From Brevibacillus laterosporus LMG 15441 (lineage in GTDB: Bacteria; Bacillota; Bacilli; Brevibacillales; Brevibacillaceae): a stretch of 64,000 nucleotides of DNA. The translations under genes were made by a program, and so were the position numbers. Location of the stretch: positions 1,646,501 to 1,710,500 of the forward strand of contig NZ_CP007806.1 of the NCBI RefSeq assembly GCF_000219535.2, written 5' to 3'. Numbering within the stretch: the first letter of the stretch is position 1; each line of letters starts with the position of its first letter. Shown in pieces: positions 35,097-39,044 of the stretch. The notes beneath the pieces were generated by a model that saw nothing but the letters and a program-made list of their open reading frames with translations, was not told the DNA's origin and searched no databases.

Positions 35097-35729
35097 TTAT
35101 TGACTTAATTCTGTAAATACGACTAATCTCTTAGCATGTTCTTGGGTTTTCTTATTAAATTTGCCAGAGCAAGTGACCAGATTCAGATTAGAGGTATTTG
35201 ACTCGCCGAAAATTCTCTCTAAGGGAGCTTCTTTCGTTTTAAAAGTGGTTACTTCTTTGACTGCATAGATAAGCCGATGGTCGTTTGAATCTGAGACGAT
35301 CACATGATCGCCATGCTTTAATTTTTTTAAATGATAAAAGATCGCTGGACCCGTGTAATGATCAAAGTGACCAGCAATAACAGCATTTCCCTTTTCACCT
35401 GGTTTTGTCCACGGAGATAAAATGCCTACTTTATCAAATGCCTTCGGAACATCCATATTTCCTTCCACTGTTATTCCTACTGTTTCTATTGTTGTATCCA
35501 ATCCAATAGAGGGAATTTGTAGGCGATTTGGTATGAAGGATGCTGTTACCGGTTTTCTCTGTGAAGTTGAAGAGGAACCAGTTGTTGTATTTGATTGCTT
35601 TTCTTCAACATGAGGAAAGGCTTGATCTCTAGATAGAGAATGGGGGATGGCAGGCTTTTTTTCCGGATTAGCGGAGCCTGAACACCCTGAAAGGATACAT
35701 ATCAGTAAAGCAAGGAAAAATATTCTCAT
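35097..35729 (-). CDS. Lipoprotein sortase, class F type
   Basis: A 210-residue protein. The N-terminus is a lipoprotein signal with lipobox ILSGC16, so it should be lipid-anchored on the outer membrane face. After a Ser/Thr-rich linker (about 40-62) comes the sortase domain with RLQIPSIGLDTTIE, H121 in AGHFDH, C187 in LVTCSG and R201 in AKRLVVF, the complete His-Cys-Arg catalytic set. Short class F sortases of this kind attach or process surface proteins at LPxTG-like motifs. A small secreted protein with an MPKTG motif is encoded next to it on the same strand. Confidence 0.88.
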   Translation of the reverse strand: MRIFFLALLICILSGCSGSANPEKKPAIPHSLSRDQAFPHVEEKQSNTTTGSSSTSQRKPVTASFIPNRLQIPSIGLDTTIETVGITVEGNMDVPKAFDKVGILSPWTKPGEKGNAVIAGHFDHYTGPAIFYHLKKLKHGDHVIVSDSNDHRLIYAVKEVTTFKTKEAPLERIFGESNTSNLNLVTCSGKFNKKTQEHAKRLVVFTELSQ

Positions 35730-35781
35730 CTTACATACCTCTTATTCATAACAGCATTACTTATTTAATTGATTGAAAATA

Positions 35782-35825
35782 TTCCATCAGGGATTCGTTT
35801 TTACATAAAACATTCCCTGATGGAA
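35782..35825 (-). terminator. Hairpin between the repeat-protein gene and the sortase gene
   Basis: TTCCATCAGGGA (35782-35793) pairs perfectly with TCCCTGATGGAA (35814-35825). On the minus strand it follows the small protein gene; only a weak T-rich tail follows, so it may be an attenuator rather than a full stop. Confidence 0.6.
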
Positions 35826-35848
35826 AAGACTGAAAGAGTTTTTACTGT

Positions 35849-36094
35849 TTAGTTACTTGCTCCACCCATACCTGTTTTAGGCATTCCTTTAATATGGAAT
35901 TTGTGATGCTTTTTATGAGACATTGTTTTTGCCTTGTGGTGTTTCTTGTGAGACATTGTTTTTGCCTTGTGATGTTTCTTGTGAGACACTGTTTTTACCT
36001 TTTGGTGTTTATGATGTCCTTCTTCCATAGCGAATACGGAAGCATTAGAGAACACAAAACAAATAGCAAGTGTTGCAGCTGCTAATTTTTTCAT
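35849..36094 (-). CDS. Small secreted Lys/His-repeat protein with MPKTG motif
   Basis: An 81-residue protein with a clear signal peptide (MKKLAAATLAICFVF, cleavage near residue 22). The mature part has three copies of an 11-residue unit (SHKKHHKAKTM), giving 16 His and many Lys, and ends GMPKTGMGGASN. MPKTG (71-75) resembles an LPxTG sorting motif but there is no hydrophobic segment or positive tail behind it. Neighbouring a class F sortase, it is a natural candidate substrate. GAAAGGA precedes the ATG at 36094. No known family is recognised. Confidence 0.75.
   Translation of the reverse strand: MKKLAAATLAICFVFSNASVFAMEEGHHKHQKVKTVSHKKHHKAKTMSHKKHHKAKTMSHKKHHKFHIKGMPKTGMGGASN
35905..36003. 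repeat. Three 33-bp tandem repeats in coding sequence
   Basis: Units 35905-35937, 35938-35970 and 35971-36003 are near-identical (GAGACATTGTTTTTGCCTTG core) and encode the 11-residue Lys/His unit. In-frame repeats like this change copy number easily. Confidence 0.88.
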
Positions 36095-36254
36095 TTTATT
36101 CGTCCTTTCAAGGTTTAATGGTGTACTACATTTCATATAGTCTCCACTTGGCAAAGGGATATGACAGTAAAAAATTCCTACAAACGTGTCCATTTTGGTA
36201 TCCTTTATAGAAGAAAAAGTTATCAAGGCGAAGCATCTGTGGTTGGACTAATCT

Positions 36255-36409: not shown

Positions 36410-37504
36410 ATGAAAAAGGTATTTTGGATTCTTGTAGCTTTGACCATTATGTTTATAAATAATACAGAAGAGGTTAAAGCGGAGCATGCAGAAATTGAAA
36501 GCTTGTTACATAGTATGTATAACGAACGTTCCAAAGCAATGATCACGAAGGAGCATGAGGTAATCAAGCATCATTATCTTACTACTTATAAAAGCAGTCG
36601 ATCTGCACTAGAACATGAAAGAAATCGAAGTACGTATATTCATACATGGGGATCAAAAAGAAACCTATCATTTATAGATGCTGAAAGTAAAATTCAAATT
36701 GTAAATATTAAGCGTATAGGAGCGAAAGCAAAGGTTTTTTTAAAACAATCACAACTAATCACGTACCAACATAATGGTGTCCCCTTTCAACCACAAAAAT
36801 TTGGAATTGGAACGCGACATCTCCTAACTTTAGAGCAAAAAGATAGCAAATGGTACATTGTGAAAGAATGGTATCTGGACCCTTTAGAGGAAAATCCGAA
36901 TTTAATTCCTGTATCAAAAAAATTCGTTACCAAAGAAGAGTTAGCCGCATATAAGCAAAGAAAGAAAAAAATAAGATATAACCGTGAGAAAGCGGTTGCT
37001 TACGCCGAAAAGTATGCTGGTGCGGCCCCTATGGCAGGGAACAACCACCGATACAACCGGAAATACGCAGATTATACATATGAAGGAGGGGACTGTACCA
37101 ATTTCACTTCTCAAGTGCTGGGGGACCCGCTAGAGGGTGGAGGACTCCCTATGAATGGAGGGTGGTTTTATAGAAAAGGTGGGAGCGTTGCTTGGATCAG
37201 AACCGATGCCTTGTACCAATTTCTTATTCATAGTGGGTACGGTAAATTAATTGCACGAGGGACATATAAAGAGGTAGCGAAACCGAACAAAAAATTTCCT
37301 CAAGGTGCCCTTTCCCATCTTGAACCAGGCGATTTGATTGCTTATGAACTTGAAGGGAATATTGATCATTTCTCCATCGTAACCGCTAGGGATGATCAGG
37401 GCTATGTATTAGTAAACTCTCATTCCGCTGATCGTTATCATGTACCGTGGGATTTGGGATGGGATAAGAAAACCAAATTTTATCTGATCCATATCAGAGA
37501 TTAA
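36410..37504 (+). CDS. Secreted amidase-6 (putative cysteine amidase) protein
   Basis: A 364-residue protein with a signal peptide (about residues 1-24, ending VKA). The N-terminal 150 residues form an extracytoplasmic helper domain. The C-terminal domain (about 195-364) matches the Amidase_6 family: C229 in GGDCTNFTSQ, H320 in DHFSIV and N334 region VNSHSADRYHVPW, a likely Cys-His-Asn set of a papain-like/CHAP-like fold. Probable role is cleavage of amide bonds in the cell wall. AGGGG lies before the ATG. Divergent from the sortase unit. Confidence 0.82.
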   Translation: MKKVFWILVALTIMFINNTEEVKAEHAEIESLLHSMYNERSKAMITKEHEVIKHHYLTTYKSSRSALEHERNRSTYIHTWGSKRNLSFIDAESKIQIVNIKRIGAKAKVFLKQSQLITYQHNGVPFQPQKFGIGTRHLLTLEQKDSKWYIVKEWYLDPLEENPNLIPVSKKFVTKEELAAYKQRKKKIRYNREKAVAYAEKYAGAAPMAGNNHRYNRKYADYTYEGGDCTNFTSQVLGDPLEGGGLPMNGGWFYRKGGSVAWIRTDALYQFLIHSGYGKLIARGTYKEVAKPNKKFPQGALSHLEPGDLIAYELEGNIDHFSIVTARDDQGYVLVNSHSADRYHVPWDLGWDKKTKFYLIHIRD

Positions 37505-37583: not shown

Positions 37584-39044
37584 ATGGGGCTGCCACTTAT
37601 TATACGTCAATTTCTTTTACGCAGTGGTCTTCTATTTCTCGTCAAAATAATTGGTGCAATCGGACGTATTTTCTTATTTCGGATTTTTGGCGCAGAAGGT
37701 ATGGGATTGTATCAAATGGTGTATGCCTTTTATGGATTTGTTTTAACCTTAGTAACAGCAGGGCTACCTACCTCTTTGTCCTTAGCAACAGCCAAGGATG
37801 TTCATAAGGGCATGTATTTTCTAAAGGTCTCCCTAATTCTTACGTGCATTTTAGGTGGAAGTGCAACGATATTATCATACAGTTACGCTGAGATCATTGC
37901 TGATTGGTACGGAGATTCAAAACTAACTGTCGCTATTCAACTCCTGTCACCTGTTTTTTTGTTTGTACCTCAGCTCCATTTATTCCGCGGCTTTTTTCAA
38001 GGAGTTGAAATATACGGTTCTATTTCCTTTTCTGAACTGCTAGAGCAATCAATGCGAGTTATTACGATGCTTGTTTTAGCAAATATTTGGATTTCGTATG
38101 GAGTATCAGTTGCGGTTGGAGGAGCGGTGCTTGGAGCTGTAGTGGGAGGATTGTCAGCTCTTCTTTTTTTTATCGGGATCTATCTTCTACAGCGCAAGAA
38201 GCTGCGTTACTTGAGTCTACCTTCACGTTTTCATCATAGCACTGAAACCTCGATTTTTTTAAAAATGTCTGTAAGTGTGCTGGCAACTAGGCTGTTACTT
38301 CCATTAACGGATTTTATAGACTCGATATTAATTCCCAACCGTCTCATGCATTCAGGTTTAACTGCTCATCAATCTACCAGCATTTATGGGGAAATAACAG
38401 GTATGGCATTAACCATTGTTTATTTACCTTCGATGGTTACATCTGCATTTCTGCATGTGATTATTCCTAAAATTGCGGGGAATTGGGAAAAGAATAATGT
38501 GGGGCAATTTAGAAGCCGTGTCAACAAATCTATGAAGGTTGGCTGGTTATGGGGAATTAGTGCATCCTTGTATTTCTTTTTGTATGGTCAAAACATTTCA
38601 CAAGCGATTACGGGAGATGCTTCCCTTGCTTATTCTTTGATTAGTCTATCTTTGATTCCTTTTTTATCAGGGATTCGAGACATTTCCACTAACATACTAT
38701 GGGTGAAAGGTCGAAAAAAAGGACCGTTAGTAGGTGTAATAGTAGGCTCTATTATTTCAATCATTATCAACTATTGGCTGGTTGGAATTCCCTCCTTTCA
38801 ATACAGTGGGATTGTCATTGGAATTGTATCTTTTGAACTAGCTTCTCTACTTTGGAATTTGCATTACATGCGACGTTTTTTATCATGGAAAATAGTAATC
38901 GAGTCCGGTGTATTTATTGTTTTTTGCTATACAATTGGACGAATGCTAGAAGGTTTTCCTTTATTCATTCATGTTGTACTTTACTTTAGTTGTGTGTCTC
39001 TTTACTTTTTTCTGCGTTTTTCCCGGCGAATAATCTATATGTAG
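37584..39044 (+). CDS. SpoVB/MurJ-like polysaccharide transporter (MOP superfamily)
   Basis: A 486-residue membrane protein with about 12 to 14 hydrophobic segments. The N-terminus FLLRSGLLFLVKIIGAIGRI and RIFGAEGMGLYQM is typical of the SpoVB/YkvU branch of MOP flippases, which move lipid-linked wall intermediates, SpoVB being needed for spore cortex. Slightly shorter than B. subtilis SpoVB, so it could be the YkvU-like paralogue. It lies 79 bases after the amidase gene with AAGGAG upstream and may share its transcript. Confidence 0.85.
   Translation: MGLPLIIRQFLLRSGLLFLVKIIGAIGRIFLFRIFGAEGMGLYQMVYAFYGFVLTLVTAGLPTSLSLATAKDVHKGMYFLKVSLILTCILGGSATILSYSYAEIIADWYGDSKLTVAIQLLSPVFLFVPQLHLFRGFFQGVEIYGSISFSELLEQSMRVITMLVLANIWISYGVSVAVGGAVLGAVVGGLSALLFFIGIYLLQRKKLRYLSLPSRFHHSTETSIFLKMSVSVLATRLLLPLTDFIDSILIPNRLMHSGLTAHQSTSIYGEITGMALTIVYLPSMVTSAFLHVIIPKIAGNWEKNNVGQFRSRVNKSMKVGWLWGISASLYFFLYGQNISQAITGDASLAYSLISLSLIPFLSGIRDISTNILWVKGRKKGPLVGVIVGSIISIIINYWLVGIPSFQYSGIVIGIVSFELASLLWNLHYMRRFLSWKIVIESGVFIVFCYTIGRMLEGFPLFIHVVLYFSCVSLYFFLRFSRRIIYM

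Follow-up and report, generated by a model that had tools for sequence, protein, structure and literature searches.

The sortase locus of Brevibacillus laterosporus

The window, a stretch of 64,000 nucleotides from the genome of Brevibacillus laterosporus LMG 15441, carries on its minus strand a gene for a short secreted protein, followed after 119 bases by a sortase gene. The features of the region are given below in the coordinates of the window.

35097..35729, minus strand: class F-like sortase, predicted lipoprotein, 210 aa (Pfam Sortase, 85 bits)
35127..35129, minus strand: codon of the catalytic Arg201, invariant
35169..35171, minus strand: codon of the catalytic Cys187, invariant
35367..35369, minus strand: codon of the catalytic His121, invariant, in the motif GHFDHYTG
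35682..35693, minus strand: lipobox LSGC, residues 13-16 with Cys16 last (from sequence and alignment)
35782..35825, minus strand: perfect inverted repeat of 12 bp (arms 35782-35793 and 35814-35825) between the two genes, fold z -4.5
35849..36094, minus strand: candidate sortase substrate without transmembrane helix (TM-less), 81 aa, secreted, Lys/His-rich, with orthologues at 37 distinct loci
35852..35884, minus strand: tag MPKTGMGGASN at the C terminus (residues 71-81), with cleavage predicted between T74 and G75
35888..35986, minus strand: three 11-residue Lys/His repeats, residues 37-69 (from sequence)
36029..36094, minus strand: signal peptide MKKLAAATLAICFVFSNASVFA, residues 1-22, with a V/A-x-A site and Cys12 in the hydrophobic core
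36059-36061, minus strand: codon of Cys12 of the short protein
36136..36164, minus strand: sigma-F-like promoter TCATA-N14-GGAGACTATA, with the 14-nt spacing of the sigG promoters of the family
36410..37504, plus strand: secreted Amidase_6 (PF12671) protein, divergent, a homologue of which follows the sortase in Paenibacillus
37584..39044, plus strand: SpoVB-like flippase (TIGR02900, 221 bits, below the cut-off of 372)

The first-pass annotation had described the enzyme as a complete His-Cys-Arg sortase with a lipobox, and this description proved exact, coordinates included. The protein belongs to PF04203 (85.4 bits; cut-off 26.6), and H121, C187 and R201 are invariant in 13 homologues from the same family and in 100% of the 37 sequences of the TM-less clade described below. 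Among all class models, the one for class F (NF033748) gave the best score (124.9 bits), which is under the curated cut-off of 166, so that the enzyme is named class F-like here; none of the 399 Bacilli genomes searched passed this cut-off. The AF2 model of the sortase has a pLDDT of 84, with most of the catalytic core above 90, and is predicted to adopt the sortase barrel fold (Z 17 against SrtA 7f87, with an rmsd of 1.9 over 126 residues); compared with solved class A, C and E sortases, Z values of 14-17 were obtained. The enzyme is a member of the sortase superfamily and probably works like a class F-type system.

The earlier description of the neighbouring gene product as an anchorless, secreted Lys/His-repeat protein of 81 residues likewise agrees with the sequence. 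An MKK start, a hydrophobic core and a conserved V/A-x-A site form a signal peptide, read from the sequence, with predicted cleavage between SVFA and M. The repeat SHKKHHKAKTM is present twice and is followed by a third copy, SHKKHHKFHIK. The protein terminates in GMPKTGMGGASN, six residues past PKTG, and a second hydrophobic segment is absent from it. A match of the short protein to the NCBIfam model EF0750_LPXTG (17.7 bits, cut-off 47) was rejected as mere similarity of signal peptide and motif.

The genome of the window encodes one sortase only. Other substrates were searched for in this genome with the PF00746 profile and with the pattern PxTGxGG, a search that PxTG ends without GG would escape. 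The whole-genome profile search gave no PF00746 anchor match. At the DNA level, the pattern was found at three sites, namely the tag, a frame of 24 residues and a position early in an ORF of 201 residues, and the 81-residue protein is the only secreted ORF ending in it. As far as profile and pattern can see, this genome has one sortase and one candidate substrate.

Conservation of the pair and its relatives in Bacilli

The sortase is present in 18 of the 39 genomes of the window's family, and in all 18 an adjacent short protein is encoded directly upstream of it on the same strand. The pattern PKTGMGGA is encoded in 16 family genomes, every one of them sortase-bearing, and the short proteins of the remaining two end in MPSTGLGGTSN and MPKTGMGGTSND. 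The pattern is absent from all 21 family genomes without the sortase, and a reversed control pattern gave 0 matches in the 39 genomes. Co-occurrence in 18/18 genomes with the sortase versus 0/21 without corresponds to a Fisher P of approximately 1.6e-11, uncorrected for kinship. The residues PKTGMGG(A) are fixed in the sixteen genomes, with synonymous changes at most of the motif codons. In B. daliensis, the last 15 residues of the short protein are identical to those in the window, although the repeats differ and the sortases are only 59% identical. The flanking genes vary among Brevibacillus (in B. daliensis they are GAPDH-like and phenylalanine-hydroxylase-like, named from sequence), and these differences between species indicate that the pair travels as a unit. 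Judged from this conservation, the pairing of short protein and sortase is no chance event.

The class Bacilli was searched for the same kind of sortase and the neighbourhoods were read, which gave 113 distinct loci. At 37 of these, in Brevibacillus, Aneurinibacillus, Paenibacillus, Cohnella and Fontibacillus and in differing flanking contexts, the partner is short and stops 6-9 residues past the motif (TM-less pairs). A larger secreted partner was found at 71 loci, ending in MPxTGxGG or a near variant with a hydrophobic helix and a basic tail behind it (TM type); where complete, these proteins have about 270-530 residues, and some contain DUF4397. No partner was recognised at the other 5 loci, among them a Paenibacillus contig that is fragmentary. 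The partners at all 37 TM-less loci lack the helix and basic tail with which a canonical sorting signal continues after its motif; counted from the motif Gly, their tail comprises 7-10 residues. The LPxTG-like C-terminal motif, [M/L]P-x-[T/S]-G-x-GG, is conserved, with MPKSGxGG or LPKSGxGG in five Paenibacillaceae members. Partners of both kinds are alike through GxGG[AT][SA], as exemplified by MPKTGMGGTSES followed by a helix (L044, Bacilli) and MPKTGMGGTSND followed by a stop (L023, in the window's family). Since the same motif with helix and basic tail is found beside sister sortases, the tag can be regarded as a genuine class F-type sorting motif; by the sequence comparison, it shares ancestry with the ordinary class F-type sorting signal, and the TM-less branch has it without helix and basic tail. 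The first-pass annotation had made its reading depend on conservation of the motif and of the gene pair in related genomes, and both are conserved in the family and across the 37 loci. The substrate relation, at that time merely inferred, is now strongly supported by the conserved pair and by the same motif in the membrane-anchored partners of sister sortases.

In a maximum-likelihood tree of 94 sortases, a single branch (SH-aLRT 99) sets apart those with a TM-less partner, which come from Brevibacillaceae, Aneurinibacillus and Paenibacillaceae, Cohnella and Fontibacillus included. With loci without a called partner left out, the partner state changes once on this tree. The tree was obtained by a quick search and has some long branches elsewhere, so that the position of the TM-less branch within the TM type is uncertain. 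The genera of the TM-less branch are spore formers. Exiguobacterium does not form spores, and its partner is of the TM type.

A lipobox is found in the sortase of the window, in 30 of the 37 TM-less-clade sortases and in 33 of the 71 TM-type ones. Some sortases of the TM-less clade are without it, and as both groups carry it, the idea that a lipobox goes together with a TM-less partner was given up after a test. Of the earlier proposal that a soluble substrate is offered to a lipid-tethered sortase, the soluble-substrate route is retained as the best reading, but the lipid tether does not distinguish this branch.

In an alignment of 27 short proteins, the MKK start, Cys12 and the P-K, G, GG and S of the tag are invariant or nearly so, and Ala precedes the predicted signal-peptide cut in all rows. 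Cys12 is kept in 26 of the 27 amid variable neighbours in the signal-peptide core, in a context that does not fit a lipobox. The repeated part varies; the short protein of genome G003, for example, contains the 11-residue repeat in two copies. Most bodies contain 18-29% Lys, up to 26% His and few acidic residues. The Lys/His-rich character noted earlier thus holds for the window and most members, but two Aneurinibacillus partners (L085, 2418-2723; L088, 3684-3968) have charge-poor bodies with Gln/Gly-rich repeats and keep tag and signal peptide, which leaves only the latter two as invariant parts. With such variation, neither metal binding nor charge is likely to be what the bodies have in common functionally; a role as flexible spacer or coat element would fit better.

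Promoter, hairpin and linked genes

Upstream of 27 non-redundant short genes, a motif found de novo (GG-A/G-N-A-Y-N-Y-T-A) lies 45-58 bases before the start, with 322 bits compared to 241-262 in shuffled sets. The pattern GGNNANNNTA was found upstream of 22 of the 27 short genes (shuffle mean 4.6, maximum 10), counted on the same set from which it was discovered, and upstream of none of 27 TM-type genes. Together with a TA 13-15 nt upstream, it is present at 17 of the 27 short genes (shuffle maximum 4). The published sigma-F consensus is GTATA/GGNAANAMTR (PMC3416734), and the csfB promoter reads GTATA...GGGGAGGCTA (PMC4383634). The gene sigG, a known sigma-F target (PMC4383634), is preceded in 30 of 30 family genomes by GCATA-N14-GG[AG]GATACTG, with which the -10 region and the spacing in the window agree. 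Scored against shuffles, the regions upstream of the short genes reach only z 2.1 with the published sigma-F consensus and z 2.6 with a sigG matrix, and the -35 region of the short-gene promoter is only partly like GYWTA. Of two other genes tried as references, gpr was uninformative, and spoIIR has a different -10 region in the same genomes, which speaks against the sigma-F assignment. The upstream element resembles a sigma-F -10 region, though imperfectly; its assignment to sigma-F is moderate, and forespore expression of the short genes is regarded as likely. Nothing at or near the gathering score of an Rfam family was found around the pair in the window or upstream of the short genes of ten relatives, so that the element is not a described RNA. 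At L132, L016 and other loci, a CC-containing box (approximately TTnCCA) is located about 22-26 bases upstream of the GG, possibly the site of a co-regulator; the sigG promoters of the family also have TTTTCCCA, but between -35 and -10.

The inverted repeat between the two genes of the window is a putative attenuator or processing hairpin. Terminator-like intergenic hairpins were found at a minimum of 18 of 37 TM-less and 25 of 70 TM-type loci; their presence in the latter points to a common practice and not to a mark of the TM-less branch. The position of the hairpin between the genes suggests that substrate may be made in excess of enzyme.

An Amidase_6 gene lies 3' of the sortase at seven TM-less loci of Paenibacillaceae (L082, L129-L132, L134 and L141), where a SpoVB-like flippase gene is often next, and likewise at L152, a locus without recognised partner. 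The Amidase_6 and SpoVB-like proteins of the window show 48% and 38% identity, respectively, to the copies in Paenibacillus sp. HW567. Neither gene was found at any TM-type locus examined, a contrast that is partly a sampling effect, since the flanks of many of these loci (L032-L061) are short.

Proposed mechanism and alternatives

What the sequences show is a conserved pair whose sortases form a single clade, a motif identical with that of canonical signals, a promoter element and a linkage to Amidase_6 and SpoVB-like genes; from this we infer cleavage, acceptor, timing, compartment and biological role as follows. On balance, we favour a dedicated minimal sortase system of endospore formers, with one enzyme and one substrate in a forespore-type setting. 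That the short protein and the sortase form a true enzyme-substrate pair is highly probable. Covalent attachment is also probable, if less so, and is preferred to simple proteolysis, whereas for the forespore/intermembrane setting the balance tips only slightly in its favour. A cleavable signal peptide would direct export of the short protein, which would be a soluble and probably disordered chain, polycationic in most cases. The sortase would recognise the C-terminal [M/L]P-K-[T/S]-G-x-G-G-x-S tag, and form a thioacyl bond to Thr74 with release of the heptapeptide GMGGASN. The chain would then be transferred to an amine, for which the side chain of meso-DAP in a peptidoglycan precursor is the most likely candidate. 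Forespore-type (sigma-F-like) transcription would put both proteins between the forespore membranes, a space that is closed when engulfment has finished, so that a soluble substrate could not escape and a membrane anchor would be unnecessary. A tie to wall synthesis around the forespore would fit the SpoVB-like and amidase neighbours. The most specific version, in which a forespore-specific sortase attaches a soluble, polycationic protein without anchor covalently to the germ-cell wall or cortex as it forms, and the closed intermembrane space takes the place of the helix, is put forward tentatively, as a possibility that we would not yet back. The pair is absent from 21 of the 39 Brevibacillaceae genomes, many of which have sporulation genes, and is thus not essential for sporulation.

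In work on protein A of S. aureus, a canonical signal deprived of helix and basic tail reportedly led to secretion without anchoring in vegetative cells. As truncated signals behave in this way there, a missing helix would be fatal if the short protein were free to diffuse. On growing cells, the same pair could nevertheless operate if the polycation were bound electrostatically to anionic lipids or teichoic acids until its linkage to the wall, for which the Lys- and His-rich, acid-poor composition of most bodies and the predicted lipid tether of most of the sortases speak. The charge-poor Aneurinibacillus partners still keep the tag, however, the promoter is forespore-like and the genera bearing the pair are spore formers; this vegetative setting is considered unlikely. 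Even less probable is a polymerising enzyme that links short proteins to one another, Thr to Lys side chain, giving a Lys/His-rich polymer or branched coat in the manner of pilus sortases. Each chain offers many Lys residues and the intergenic hairpin hints at an excess of substrate, but a conserved pilin-type Lys motif is lacking, repeat number and composition vary freely, and no adhesin or tip subunit was seen nearby.

Slightly behind this stands the proposal of a sortase that serves as processing protease, the released GMGGASN or GFGGASEQTE being a signal and the body a disposable carrier. The released peptide (7-10 residues) is indeed the best conserved part and the body is poorly conserved; GxGG is, however, common to TM-type substrates, where it precedes the helix, so that its conservation is explained by recognition by the enzyme, and a receptor gene is not consistently nearby. 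We give about as little credence, or marginally less, to a short protein held in the membrane by lipidation of Cys12 or by an uncleaved signal peptide, whose transfer would staple membrane to wall as does the Braun lipoprotein. The near invariance of Cys12 is in favour of it, but a V/A-x-A type I site follows this residue in nearly all members. Lipidation of Cys12 itself was rejected: in the window the residue before it is Ile, and about half of the proteins have Ile, Val, Leu or Thr there, which is incompatible with a lipobox. A decaying short gene, or one unrelated to the sortase, might account for the low-complexity body, but it is hardly credible given the conservation of the tag with synonymous change and the perfect co-occurrence.

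The dedicated sortase system preferred here shares features with several known ones. Class F sortases (NF033748; Exiguobacterium, Fictibacillus, Halobacillus and relatives) have the same [M/L]PxTGxGG motif, the same order of substrate and sortase and the same His, Cys and Arg; their partners, in contrast to the short TM-less ones, have 270-530 aa with a TM helix and a basic tail. Secreted proteins with the canonical LPXTG signal (PF00746) likewise have a C-terminal Pro-x-Thr-Gly cleavage site, but it is followed by the helix and basic tail that the protein of the window lacks. A likeness to SrtC of B. anthracis, a sporulation sortase, holds if the promoter is read correctly. Unlike the enzyme of the window, SrtC is of class D, and its known substrates carry ordinary sorting signals and are not short repetitive basic chains. 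The Braun lipoprotein (Lpp) is likewise secreted, short and Lys-containing, and its C terminus is linked to peptidoglycan, as is proposed here; the link is made by L,D-transpeptidases and Lpp has a lipobox, neither of which applies to the short protein. Soluble SpoIIR and SpoIVB are made in the forespore, secreted into the intermembrane space and act there (PMC4383634), as proposed for the short protein, but they are signals for protease activation and not sortase substrates. In the open-access literature, no description was found of TM-less sortase substrates, of such a lipoprotein sortase or of the MPKTGMGG tag.

The helix and the basic tail are held to be defining for sortase substrates, and annotation pipelines look for both. 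A sortase clade whose only visible partner lacks them means that some substrates are being missed. The TM-less branch also amounts to a natural experiment on how much of the signal is required by the enzyme (P-x-T-G-x-G-G), and the pair is a minimal model in which the attachment of proteins, perhaps in sporulating cells, can be studied. Protein ligation could also benefit from a sortase whose natural substrates are soluble and have a short GxGGxS tail.

Further observations concern other Bacilli. The commonest TM-type partner belongs to a secreted family of about 450 aa (L062, L063, L135, L138 and others); of two members compared with Pfam, L138 gave no match and L135 a single one, below threshold. 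At L079, L080 and L097, a class F-like sortase gene adjoins genes for an ECF-type sigma factor and an anti-sigma-like protein (read from sequence), which suggests stress-controlled wall anchoring there. An expansion is seen in the Bacilli genome G341, which has tandem substrate-sortase pairs at L066 (2750-6560) and eight matches to the class F model.
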